A stretch of 64,000 bases of DNA from Limihaloglobus sulfuriphilus (GTDB taxonomy: Bacteria; Planctomycetota; Phycisphaerae; Sedimentisphaerales; Sedimentisphaeraceae), in NCBI RefSeq assembly GCF_001999965.1, contig NZ_CP019646.1, positions 1,860,001-1,924,000 on the forward strand. Direction: 5' to 3'. The position numbers were made by a program, and so were the translations under genes. Positions within the stretch are counted from its first letter, which is position 1. Every line of letters begins with the position of its first letter. Shown one piece after another: positions 49,825-53,038 of this stretch. Below the pieces are notes generated by a model. That model was not told the origin of the DNA. It did not search any database and saw only the letters and a list, made by a program, of their open reading frames with translations.

Positions 49825-50439
49825 TTAACTCTCATAAAGGTGATTGTCTTTTATATATTCCAGCACACCAGGGGCGAGCATACCCGAAACATCCTGCCCC
49901 GCGGCAAGGCGTTTGCGCACCTGCGTACTGCTGATATCGATAAGCGGCGTCTGGACGGGGACAACCTTATTCATCGCGGCAAGCTCTTTACCCAGCAGAC
50001 CGGGCAAAGCCTGCTTATCAAAGATCTTACAGCCGCCGCGGTACATCGCTGCTATTGTGCAGTTATTTAGCATCTCTTCTATCCGATACCATTTTTTTAA
50101 AGAACCAAGCGTATCGGCTCCAACAAGCCAGAAAAGCTCCGCGTCATCACCCAAAAGTCTCTTGAAATGCATCACAGTATCAAATGAATAGCTCGGCTCG
50201 GACCGTTCAAACTCGGTATAGCTCACACAAAAGAGTTTCTCGCCCCGGACAGCCCTTTCAAGCATCTTCCCGCGGTCAGAGTCTGAAGCCGCGGGCGGGT
50301 TATCCTTAAACGGAGACCGCCTTGCCGGTATTAGATACACACAATCCGCCCCAAGCTCAAGGGCCGCCGCCCGGGAAGCCTCGATATGCCCCTTATGAAC
50401 AGGGTCAAAAGTTCCGCCGTACAAAATCACACGCTTCAT
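49825..50439 (-). CDS. nadD: Nicotinate-nucleotide adenylyltransferase
   Basis: 204 residues. The nucleotidyltransferase motif GGTFDPVHKGH is at the N-terminus, VPVQTPLIDISSTQVRKR is the second signature (SSTxVR), and LFWLVGADTLGSLKKWY is characteristic of NadD. It adenylates nicotinate mononucleotide to deamido-NAD. Its ATG overlaps the pyrG stop (ATGA), so translation is coupled. Confidence 0.95.
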   Translation of the reverse strand: MKRVILYGGTFDPVHKGHIEASRAAALELGADCVYLIPARRSPFKDNPPAASDSDRGKMLERAVRGEKLFCVSYTEFERSEPSYSFDTVMHFKRLLGDDAELFWLVGADTLGSLKKWYRIEEMLNNCTIAAMYRGGCKIFDKQALPGLLGKELAAMNKVVPVQTPLIDISSTQVRKRLAAGQDVSGMLAPGVLEYIKDNHLYES

Positions 50440-52214
50440 AGACCCTCGGAGAAAACATCATTTACCGCGTCGAGTACTTCAGGGTAACCCTTATCGGGAT
50501 ACTTCCGCAGACGCGCTGCGGCAATAAGTCCCAGAAACATCCTGCTCGGCCGCAGCGGACGCGACGTTAGGCACGGATGCGATTGCGTACCGACGAAATA
50601 CGGATGACCGGGCAGCTCGAGAATCTGCATTATCGGGTGTCCCGGAGCCTTGCCCGAGAACACCAGACCGTGATCCTCTAAAGACTTGATATAGTCCGGC
50701 TCAACCTCGTAGCGATGGCGAAAACGCAGACGAACACTTTCTTTTTCGCCAAGCAGTTTCCAGGCAAAAGTGCCGGTTTTAACCTCAACATCCCTGCCGC
50801 CAAGACGCATGTTGCCGCCGAGTTTTTCTATCTTTTTCTGCTCGGGCAAAACCCCGATAACGCTTGCTGAATCTTTGGTTTTAATCTCGGAGCTGTTTGC
50901 GTCTTTTATGCCGCAAACGTTACGGGCAAACTCGATTACAGCCATCTGGAAACCAAGGCACAGACCCAGGTACGGCACGTTGTTTTCACGGGCATACTTG
51001 ATACAGGCTACCTTGCCCTCTGTGCCGCGTGTTCCGAAACCGCCGGGAACGATAATCCCGTCAACATCTTTTAAAAACGCCGCCGCCTTTTCATCTGATG
51101 TGATATCTGTCACCTCGATCCATTTAATCCTGACCTTGACAGACAAAGCCGTCTCACAATGCTCGATGGCCTTGATTATAGACGCATAGCTGTCACGCAC
51201 AGTCGTGTATTTGCCCGTAATACCGATAGTAATCTCAGAATCATACTCGCCAATTTTAGATGTAAACTTATTCCACTGTTTTGTATTTTTCGCCTCGAGC
51301 TCTTCGTCTATCCTCTCATCAAGACGCAGCACCTTTGTTACAATCTTATCAATACTGCTCTCTCTTAGCATCTCCGGGATTGTGTAGATGCTCTTCGAAT
51401 CGTGCATACTGAAAACGTGCTCAAGCGGCACATTGCTGAAAACGCTCATCTTCTGGCGAACCGTCTCTGTAACCTCGCAGTCAGCCCTGCAGGCAATAAT
51501 GTCCGGCTGAATACCCTTTTCCATCAGGTTGCGTATTCCAAGCTGGGCGGCTTTGGATTTCTGCTCACCGAGAATCTTCGGTGCCAGGATGTACGTAAGA
51601 GCGACGAAACACGAGCTGCCCTCGCCCTCTTCATACGCCAGCTCTCGCATCGCCTCGATATAGAAGGCGTTTTCCAAATCACCCACCGTGCCGCCAATCT
51701 CAACGAACACAACATCAGCATCGCTTTCCATCGCCAGCCGACGAAGACGCAGCTTCACCTCACCGGTGATATGCGGGATCATCTGAACATCACGCCCAAG
51801 GTATTCGCCGTGACGCTCTTTGTTGAGAACATCACGGTAAATCTGGCCGCTCGTACAGAAATTATGCCGGTTAAGGTCCTGGTCGAGAATCCTCTCATAA
51901 GTACCCAGATCCATATCACATTCGATACCGTCATCCAGAACAAACACCTCGCCGTGCCTGAACGGATTGAGCGTGCCCGAGTCGATATTGAGATATCCCT
52001 CCAGTTTTATAGGAGACACCTTGAAGCCCTTGTCCTTGAGTACCTTGGCCAGGGAAGATGAGAATATTCCCTTGCCCAGACCGCTCATGACTGTTCCAAG
52101 CACAATGACGTACTTGGTCTTGCCCTTGATGTAGCCCTCCGGTATGGGCGAAAAATATTCGGTGTCCGTGGAAACGTTGCTTACACTTGCTAATAGGTCT
52201 TTATTATCTGTCAT
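50436..52214 (-). CDS. pyrG: CTP synthase, divergent form with altered glutaminase triad
   Basis: 592 residues. The synthetase domain has an atypical P-loop (GTVMSGLGKG rather than GGVVSxLGKG) and KLEGYLNIDSGTLNPFRHGEVF where most enzymes have KLDPYxNVDPGTMxPxxHGEVF; the metal ligands Asp (IDSGT) and Glu (VEIGGTVGD) are kept. The glutamine amidotransferase domain has its Cys nucleophile (LGLCLGFQMA, near 418) and His (QSHPCLTS, near 542), but the Glu of the canonical HPEF triad is Cys here. The N-terminus has about 30 extra residues. It converts UTP to CTP with glutamine or ammonia. It lies between kdsB (38 nt upstream) and nadD (4-nt overlap); CTP supply links naturally to the CMP-Kdo synthetase upstream. 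Confidence 0.92.
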   Translation of the reverse strand: MTDNKDLLASVSNVSTDTEYFSPIPEGYIKGKTKYVIVLGTVMSGLGKGIFSSSLAKVLKDKGFKVSPIKLEGYLNIDSGTLNPFRHGEVFVLDDGIECDMDLGTYERILDQDLNRHNFCTSGQIYRDVLNKERHGEYLGRDVQMIPHITGEVKLRLRRLAMESDADVVFVEIGGTVGDLENAFYIEAMRELAYEEGEGSSCFVALTYILAPKILGEQKSKAAQLGIRNLMEKGIQPDIIACRADCEVTETVRQKMSVFSNVPLEHVFSMHDSKSIYTIPEMLRESSIDKIVTKVLRLDERIDEELEAKNTKQWNKFTSKIGEYDSEITIGITGKYTTVRDSYASIIKAIEHCETALSVKVRIKWIEVTDITSDEKAAAFLKDVDGIIVPGGFGTRGTEGKVACIKYARENNVPYLGLCLGFQMAVIEFARNVCGIKDANSSEIKTKDSASVIGVLPEQKKIEKLGGNMRLGGRDVEVKTGTFAWKLLGEKESVRLRFRHRYEVEPDYIKSLEDHGLVFSGKAPGHPIMQILELPGHPYFVGTQSHPCLTSRPLRPSRMFLGLIAAARLRKYPDKGYPEVLDAVNDVFSEGL

Positions 52215-52252: not shown

Positions 52253-53038
52253 TTAAGAAAGACTTGAATTGTATCTTTCAACGAATCTTTCATACTGCTC
52301 TTCTGTGTCGATGCCCTCACAGGCATTTTCTACCATCGCGGTCATTATCTTATACCCGTTTTCAAGCACCCTGAGCTGTTCGAGTGACTCGCAAACCTCC
52401 AGCGGGCTCTGAGGCAGCTTTGTTATCTCCAGCAGAAAATCCCTTCGATAGGCGTATATGCCTAAGTGCCGCTTTGCAAGCTGCATATCTCCGCTGCCCG
52501 CCTGGCGATTATACGGTATCGGGCTTCGGGAAAAATACAACGCCCGCCCGTCAATACCGGTAACGCACTTAACAACATTGGGGTTGTTCAGCATCTCCTG
52601 GTCTTCTATGCCCGTAACAAGCGTTGCCATCTGTGCATCCGGATTATCAACAAGCAGCGACGCGAGAAGGTCAATATCCTCCGGCGATATTTCCGGCTCG
52701 TCGGCCTGTACGTTTATGATTATATCCGCATCAATATCCGCCACGGCCTCGGCGATGCGGTCGGTGCCGCTCTTGTGCTTATGGGATGTCATCGCGCATG
52801 CCGCCTCGAAAGTCTCACACGCGGCAAAGACCTTCTGCGAATCTGTCGCCACCAGCACAGAGCTGACACTGCCGGCCTTTAGCACCTGTTCGGCAGTATG
52901 CTGAACGAGAAACTTGCCTGTTTTGTTGGCGAGCACCTTGCCGGGAAAACGGGTTGAATCATATCTTGCGGGTATTACAGCAATTATGTTCAAATCAAAC
53001 CTCATAAAAAATTGAAGGAATTTGAGTGCGAAAATCAT
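52253..53038 (-). CDS. kdsB: 3-deoxy-manno-octulosonate cytidylyltransferase (CMP-Kdo synthetase)
   Basis: 261 residues from 53038 (GGAG close upstream); an ATG eleven codons in, just before RFDLNIIAVIPARYDSTRFPGK, may be the true start. Motifs: VIPARYDSTRFPGK, ATDSQKV, SGTDRIAEAV, NVQADEPEI and HLGIYAYRRDFL. It activates Kdo with CTP for lipopolysaccharide inner core, which indicates a Gram-negative-type outer membrane. First gene of kdsB-pyrG-nadD. Confidence 0.95.
   Translation of the reverse strand: MIFALKFLQFFMRFDLNIIAVIPARYDSTRFPGKVLANKTGKFLVQHTAEQVLKAGSVSSVLVATDSQKVFAACETFEAACAMTSHKHKSGTDRIAEAVADIDADIIINVQADEPEISPEDIDLLASLLVDNPDAQMATLVTGIEDQEMLNNPNVVKCVTGIDGRALYFSRSPIPYNRQAGSGDMQLAKRHLGIYAYRRDFLLEITKLPQSPLEVCESLEQLRVLENGYKIMTAMVENACEGIDTEEQYERFVERYNSSLS

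Follow-up and report, generated by a model that had tools for sequence, protein, structure and literature searches.

The window, the whole 64,000-nucleotide stretch of Limihaloglobus sulfuriphilus DNA that we analysed, carries on its reverse strand, at 50436-52214, an open reading frame of 592 codons encoding a full-length CTP synthase (PyrG). Profile searches matched both a PF06418 and a PF00117 domain in the product, and the NCBIfam PyrG model TIGR00337 was matched from position 3 to position 526 of its 526 with 655.8 bits, the cut-off being 462.75. The motifs that had drawn attention to this gene in the original prediction, GTVMSGLGKG, KLEGYLNIDSG and HPCL, are all present. We refer to the subfamily to which this protein belongs, found in the class Phycisphaerae, as class-type PyrG, and to its members as Cys-type or Glu-type according to the residue at position 548 (numbering of the protein in the window). 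The locus is laid out as follows:

49825..50439, (-): downstream neighbour, PF01467; 4-base overlap with the pyrG stop
50436..52214, (-): pyrG, class-type CTP synthase, 592 aa (TIGR00337; PF06418 and PF00117; Foldseek 1vco and 3nva)
52119..52214, (-): N-terminal extension, residues 1-32, found in the 21 class-type rows displayed and not in the canonical PyrG rows L083, L084 and L207
51321..52115, (-): synthase (amidoligase) domain, residues 34-298 (PF06418)
52068..52097, (-): P-loop GTVMSGLGKG, residues 40-49; T41 and G45 class-fixed, K48 kept (E. coli K18)
51975..52007, (-): KLEGYLNIDSG, residues 70-80, aligned with canonical KxDPYxNVDPG
51789..51794, (-): R141-D142 in loop L4; D142 is the class-fixed acid
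50523..51200, (-): glutaminase (class I GATase) domain, residues 339-564 (PF00117)
51024..51044, (-): oxyanion/lid L11 motif GGFGTRG, residues 391-397; GGFG-x-RG in 65/65 Cys-type rows
50958..50960, (-): nucleophile Cys419 (TGC), E. coli C379 by alignment
50577..50579, (-): catalytic His546 (CAT), E. coli H515 by alignment
50571..50573, (-): Cys548 (TGC) at the triad-Glu position, E. coli E517 (1vco and 3nva alignment, numbering, codons in relatives)
52253..53038, (-): upstream neighbour, cytidylyltransferase (PF02348)

Among solved structures, the CTP synthases of T. thermophilus and S. solfataricus were the best sequence matches (phmmer). An AlphaFold model of the window PyrG reached a mean pLDDT of 86.0 and a pTM of 0.88; its input consisted of 76 sequences, all Cys-type since they were drawn from the Cys-motif scan described below. 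When Foldseek was run with this model, 1vco and 3nva ranked first, with a TM-score of 0.83-0.84 by query length. The N-terminal extension of about 32 residues is conserved in class-type PyrG (P25 is found in 145/145 class-type rows), and model confidence is low at residues 1-18. The upstream cytidylyltransferase is presumably kdsB, a consumer of CTP; where loci had flanks, a kdsB match lay near pyrG in 24/29 loci of the order Sedimentisphaerales, 12/16 further class loci and 15/24 loci of other classes. The downstream PF01467 gene, which we take to be nadD, is a less constant neighbour, with a match near pyrG in just 6/29 order loci and 0/16 further class loci.

In class I glutamine amidotransferases (GATases), a Cys attacks glutamine, a His serves as the base, and a Glu restrains and polarises the His (PMC5871853); His 515 and Glu 517 have been named as the triad residues of CTP synthase (PMC9138612; these two sources, like PMC6113224 and PMC13188914 below, are cited from excerpts). 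The window PyrG has the class I fold, the nucleophile Cys at the elbow and the His; the Glu expected two residues past the catalytic His is absent, and Cys548 stands there. In the phmmer alignments to 1vco and 3nva, Cys548 faces the Glu of HPE, and when Klebsiella PyrG is used as a guide to the E. coli numbering (offset 2), C419, H546 and C548 of the window protein correspond to C379, H515 and E517. In relatives the codons of this column are TGC or TGT for Cys, GAA or GAG for Glu and TCC for Ser; the Glu and Cys codons differ at three of three bases. The alignments, the numbering and the codon readout thus uphold the original prediction that a Cys has replaced the triad Glu. Its companion claim, that the nucleophile Cys and the His remain, holds well beyond the window: both residues are invariant in the aligned class-type proteins, in 65/65 Cys-type and 79/79 Glu-type rows.

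A PyrG of the window type, complete or in pieces, was found in 59/59 genomes sampled from the order, with Cys at the triad column in 47 loci, Glu in 11 and Ser in one; all 11 Glu loci belong to a single family (f6). Elsewhere in the class, where 101 of 102 genomes searched gave a match and five loci were left unread as fragmentary genes, the 96 loci read had Glu in 74 cases and Cys in 22; among those five, pattern searches found Cys in one genome (G142) and Glu in two (G077 and G103). With Cys in 47/59 order loci and 22/96 further class loci, its presence at this column is more than chance and is not an oddity of one genome. In other planctomycete classes, where 44 loci were taken from the 100 genomes with a match, all 44 had Glu; with Klebsiella and Bacillus added, Glu was found outside the class in 46/46. 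A degenerate TQxHPC pattern matched 104/397 class genomes, in 64/276 genera, with one match for the backward control pattern, and the matching Glu pattern found 135/397, with two control matches and a few extra chance-looking ones; both patterns overlook genes with different flanks. Three genomes stood apart. One member of the class (G079, family f20, 99% complete) gave no PyrG match at E 1e-20. Two loci of family f16, L184 (G096) and L185 (G102), carry a canonical-like PyrG instead of the class type, with 41% and 40% identity to the query, which is possibly a replacement by transfer. A locus from another class (L083, G187, family f52; 47% identity to the query) has in common with the class type G45, G73, F498 and Q530, among its characteristic residues, and looks intermediate.

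Scanning genome_contigs for the Cys motif found at least 117 stretches; the motif had to be flanked by T, Q, L/F and R, and the counts are lower bounds, so that Cys variants may occur elsewhere. Among the matches listed, 108 were Cys PyrG with 53-76% identity to the query and nine lay outside PyrG. Most of the 108 titles named Planctomycetota, Planctomycetes, Phycisphaerae, Phycisphaerales or Sedimentisphaerales. A few differed, naming Woesearchaeota, Actinomycetes, Kuenenia or Blastopirellula (L272, L284, L265 and L285), or 'uncultured bacterium' alone; since these contigs carry class-type PyrG with 61-72% identity to the query, they are probably misbinned or mislabelled. No close relative was found in viral_contigs, and phage and plasmid matches were below 60% identity.

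The history of the column was followed on an alignment of 191 proteins, made once duplicates and 11 rows that had stops or were only partly covered had been set aside. On a 153-row tree built without column 548, at least nine changes among E, C and S were required, and a mixture-model tree of 58 rows also gave nine changes of state. On the protein tree Cys turns up in about five places (the order clade, f11, f12, f15 and one f16 protein, L140), and Glu reappears in one family (f6); on the 58-row tree f15 might join the order. A single clade of all Cys/Ser rows was rejected (p-AU 1.4e-8), as was a single clade of the Cys/Ser rows of the order (p 8.8e-6), and a single clade of the f6 Glu rows was not (p 0.247); the groups in these tests were named post hoc, the trees were quick ones and the root was set by Glu-bearing outgroups alone. 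Cys persists in large clades. The trees suggest that Cys was gained about four or five times and that Glu came back at least once, the direction of change following from a root that rests on Glu-bearing outgroups only. Two single proteins deserve mention. In L140 (G158), the final stretch of 68 residues, which contains TQAHPC, has its nearest match in a Cys-type protein of the order, in family f2 (84%, its own family reaching 81%). The preceding segments most resemble its own family f16, in which the other members aligned read QFHPE, QSHPE or QYHPE; given these conflicting affinities, the protein may be a mosaic whose Cys could have come by gene conversion. L041 (G011, family f2) has Ser (TCC) at the triad column and is nested amid Cys-type relatives.

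We looked for a second, normal pyrG, whose presence would have told against the original prediction. The search of the complete genome (3,868,357 bases in one contig) found none: besides the window gene it returned just a weak match of 46 residues (E 0.121). The change is also specific to PyrG among the PF00117 proteins of this genome: a search with that family gave five matches, the window PyrG and four others that look like TrpG/PabA, CarA, GuaA and HisH, and all four have HPE, ruling out a genome-wide loss of the triad Glu.

The original prediction had joined to the Cys an atypical P-loop and an altered KLDPYxNVDPG region. Both are present as quoted. They are nevertheless traits of the whole class-type subfamily, separate from the Cys: T41, G45, E72 and G73 are found in 145/145 class-type proteins, whichever residue stands at 548 (E in 79, C in 65, S in 1), and the 45 comparison rows have at these columns G, mostly S, D and P, with D and P in 45/45. 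D142 likewise occurs in 145/145 class-type rows, the comparison rows having T (39) or C (6). The Glu-type proteins of the class share the subfamily, the P-loop, KLEGY and the extension with the window PyrG and differ from it in having Glu at 548; no other column separates the two types. No compensating column follows the Cys/Glu switch, the highest mutual information being 0.42 as against 0.99 for column 548 itself, and no column acquires an acid together with Cys in the 145 class-type rows. Residue 545 is small in 65/65 Cys-type and 55/79 Glu-type rows and is never aromatic beside Cys, an association that was not significant in a phylogenetic sign test (median p 0.5). Other unusual glutaminase motifs occur in Glu-type proteins of families f9, f19 and f23 (e.g. 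L147, L172 and L155): AGFG or GAFG at the oxyanion site, or HAE for HPE.

The remaining catalytic apparatus is well conserved. All 65 Cys-type rows keep the GGFG-x-RG motif together with E. coli Q383, E403, T51, E68, L109, F353, R356, G360, R440, R468 and R470. K18, K40, D72, E140, K187, K189 and K223 (E. coli numbers), which we take to be the catalytic residues of the synthase domain, are present in the window protein and in 65/65 Cys-type rows. We compared the divergence of the GATase domain with that of the synthase domain in four bins of synthase divergence, a comparison rather than a test since the pairs are non-independent: Cys-Cys pairs gave ratios of 2.27, 1.61, 1.40 and 1.20, and Glu-Glu pairs ratios of 2.15, 1.76, 1.51 and 1.37. 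The Cys-Cys value is thus the lower in the best-filled bin (1.40 vs 1.51), and the GATase domain of Cys-type proteins shows no relaxed constraint, save that it is slightly faster in the lowest bin (2.27 vs 2.15).

Most of the GTP-activation residues that we checked (T51, E68, L109, R356, G360, T438, R440, R468, R470 and others) are kept in the window PyrG. The exceptions concern both types. T438, which lies in the GTP-activation motif GG(T/S)(M/L)RLG and which the L. lactis enzyme needs for its activation by GTP (PMC9138612), is Asn in the window PyrG (N468), in 63/65 Cys-type and in 55/79 Glu-type rows, and Thr in 45/45 comparison rows. M52 is Leu class-wide; R105 is His in the window PyrG, and R105 and D107 vary in Cys-type and comparison rows alike; R429 falls in a stretch missing from the window PyrG and from 44/45 comparison rows. 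D42 is replaced by E and K306 by A in all class-type rows with Cys or Glu, and E499 by Q in 136/144. Since positions of the GTP loops differ in both types, GTP control may differ from that in E. coli in both.

These observations establish a real, recurrent exchange of the triad Glu for Cys in a class-specific CTP synthase which, judged by its sequence, otherwise keeps its catalytic residues. As to what the enzyme does, we favour, with slightly more confidence than doubt, a housekeeping glutamine-dependent CTP synthase that uses a Cys419-His546 dyad, with Cys548 filling the place of the acid. We infer its catalysis, its control by GTP, the dyad mechanism and the role of Cys548 as follows. Cys419, activated by His546, would attack glutamine; the ammonia released would move to the synthase domain, where UTP activated by ATP would be converted to CTP; and GTP would probably act as an activator of the glutaminase, as it does in other CTP synthases. 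Cys548 would occupy the spot from which a triad Glu would restrain and polarise His546, and may be an acceptable and probably even a favoured substitute for the acid, for instance as a weak hydrogen-bond partner of His546. Because it is the only pyrG found in the genome, the window PyrG is predicted to make CTP; that it uses glutamine is suggested by a glutaminase site whose remainder is largely intact while the swap recurs in several lineages. The dyad is supported by precedents in other class I enzymes: according to PMC5871853, the triad Glu is non-essential in E. coli carbamoyl phosphate synthetase (CPS) and, on biochemical data, probably non-catalytic in IGPS (both cited second hand there), and it is absent from GatD, which that source reads as using a dyad. 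In PMC6113224, however, GatD uses Asp349 of MurT, and because GatD borrows this aspartate the word 'dyad' may be wrong here too; we accordingly put the dyad first and treat a surrogate acid as its rival. Further points tell against the dyad. The alphabet of the column, E, C and S, is narrower than a dispensable position would predict, and it is the best hint that Cys may be favoured beyond mere tolerance. Cys is shorter than Glu, and a contact between the Cys548 thiol and His546 is hypothetical. Lastly, there are the GTP-loop differences (T438N, M52L and the variation at R105 and D107) and the slightly raised ratio in the lowest divergence bin.

If an acid were to substitute as Asp349 of MurT does for GatD (PMC6113224), the candidate would be the class-fixed Asp142 of loop L4: the comparison rows have Thr or Cys there in 45/45 cases, and in E. 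coli L4 extends over the GATase/synthase cleft of the neighbouring subunit (PMC9138612). Yet D142 is equally fixed in Glu-type proteins and no acid emerges alongside Cys in class-type rows, which leaves this reading a slim chance. The original prediction itself proposed that the glutaminase is weak or lost and that free ammonia is used. A catalytic-triad residue is indeed absent, CTP synthases are able to use ammonia (PMC9138612), and the T438N change marks nearly all Cys-type rows. The same change is nevertheless frequent in Glu-type rows, the triad Glu is reported to be non-essential in CPS (PMC5871853), and the evidence from sequence runs against the proposal, as the nucleophile, the His, the oxyanion motif and the glutamine-site residues are kept in 65/65 Cys-type rows and constraint on the GATase is not relaxed; we regard it as distinctly improbable. 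We give somewhat more room to an active role for Cys548, as the thiolate of a Cys-His-Cys triad or as a thiol that responds to redox state, persulfide or metal and so tunes or shuts off the glutaminase. Glu has repeatedly given way to Cys, and not to Ala, Gln or Asp, despite the three-base difference between their codons, with Cys419 and His546 invariant beside it. Even so, Glu reappears in f6 within the Cys-bearing order, no other column switches with Cys548, and Cys does not track COX1, which was found in 16/17 genomes of f11, 2/2 of f15, 0/3 of f12 and 2/59 of the mostly-Cys order. It is thus unlikely, if conceivable, that Phycisphaerae CTP synthases repeatedly adopted an active Cys-His-Cys site whose second thiol tunes glutamine use by redox, persulfide or metal state. 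A link of the Cys with anaerobic life was dropped on similar grounds, since the heme-copper oxidase family PF00115, the search for which also matched 8/14 control genomes, does not follow Cys.

In the literature searched, by titles and abstract starts and with subscription journals mostly outside its coverage, we found no description of a Glu-to-Cys CTP synthase and no paper on Phycisphaerae together with CTP synthase. Arguments over whether the class I triad Glu is needed have so far drawn on GatD and on mutants of a small number of enzymes. In PyrG the exchange is natural and repeated, in a presumably essential enzyme, with an apparent return of Glu; since there are close relatives bearing Glu and Cys, the need for the triad Glu can be tested with natural pairs. 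HPC instead of HPE need not signal a dead glutaminase.

The window PyrG shares with canonical PyrG (E. coli, 1vco and 3nva) both domains, the fold, the nucleophile Cys, the His, the Mg, ATP/UTP and glutamine residues and most of the GTP residues that were checked. It differs in the Cys for the triad Glu, in the class-type residues T41, G45, E72, G73, D142, A344, F498 and Q530, in N468 at the Thr of the GTP motif and in its N-terminal extension, and its identity to PyrG outside the class is 38-48%. GatD (of GatD/MurT) and the CobB/CobQ GATases are similar in having the class I fold, the Cys and the His and no triad Glu (PMC5871853). GatD differs in having Gly/Pro at the triad-Glu site, in its pathway and in that it may borrow Asp349 of MurT (PMC6113224); no GatD or CobQ model matched the window protein at E 0.001, its best families being PyrG. 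E. coli CPS, another class I GATase, has Glu355 in its triad; its reported dispensability (PMC5871853) comes from mutagenesis, whereas the loss of the Glu in PyrG is natural and recurrent. We also followed NF004836 (CTP synthase C-terminal region-related (seleno)protein), a PyrG-related GATase family to which the window protein scored 134.3 bits, below the cut-off of 260. This lead was dropped: the Sec of NF004836 lies in GxUxG (PMC13188914), which we read as the nucleophile motif, whereas the window protein is changed at the triad Glu.
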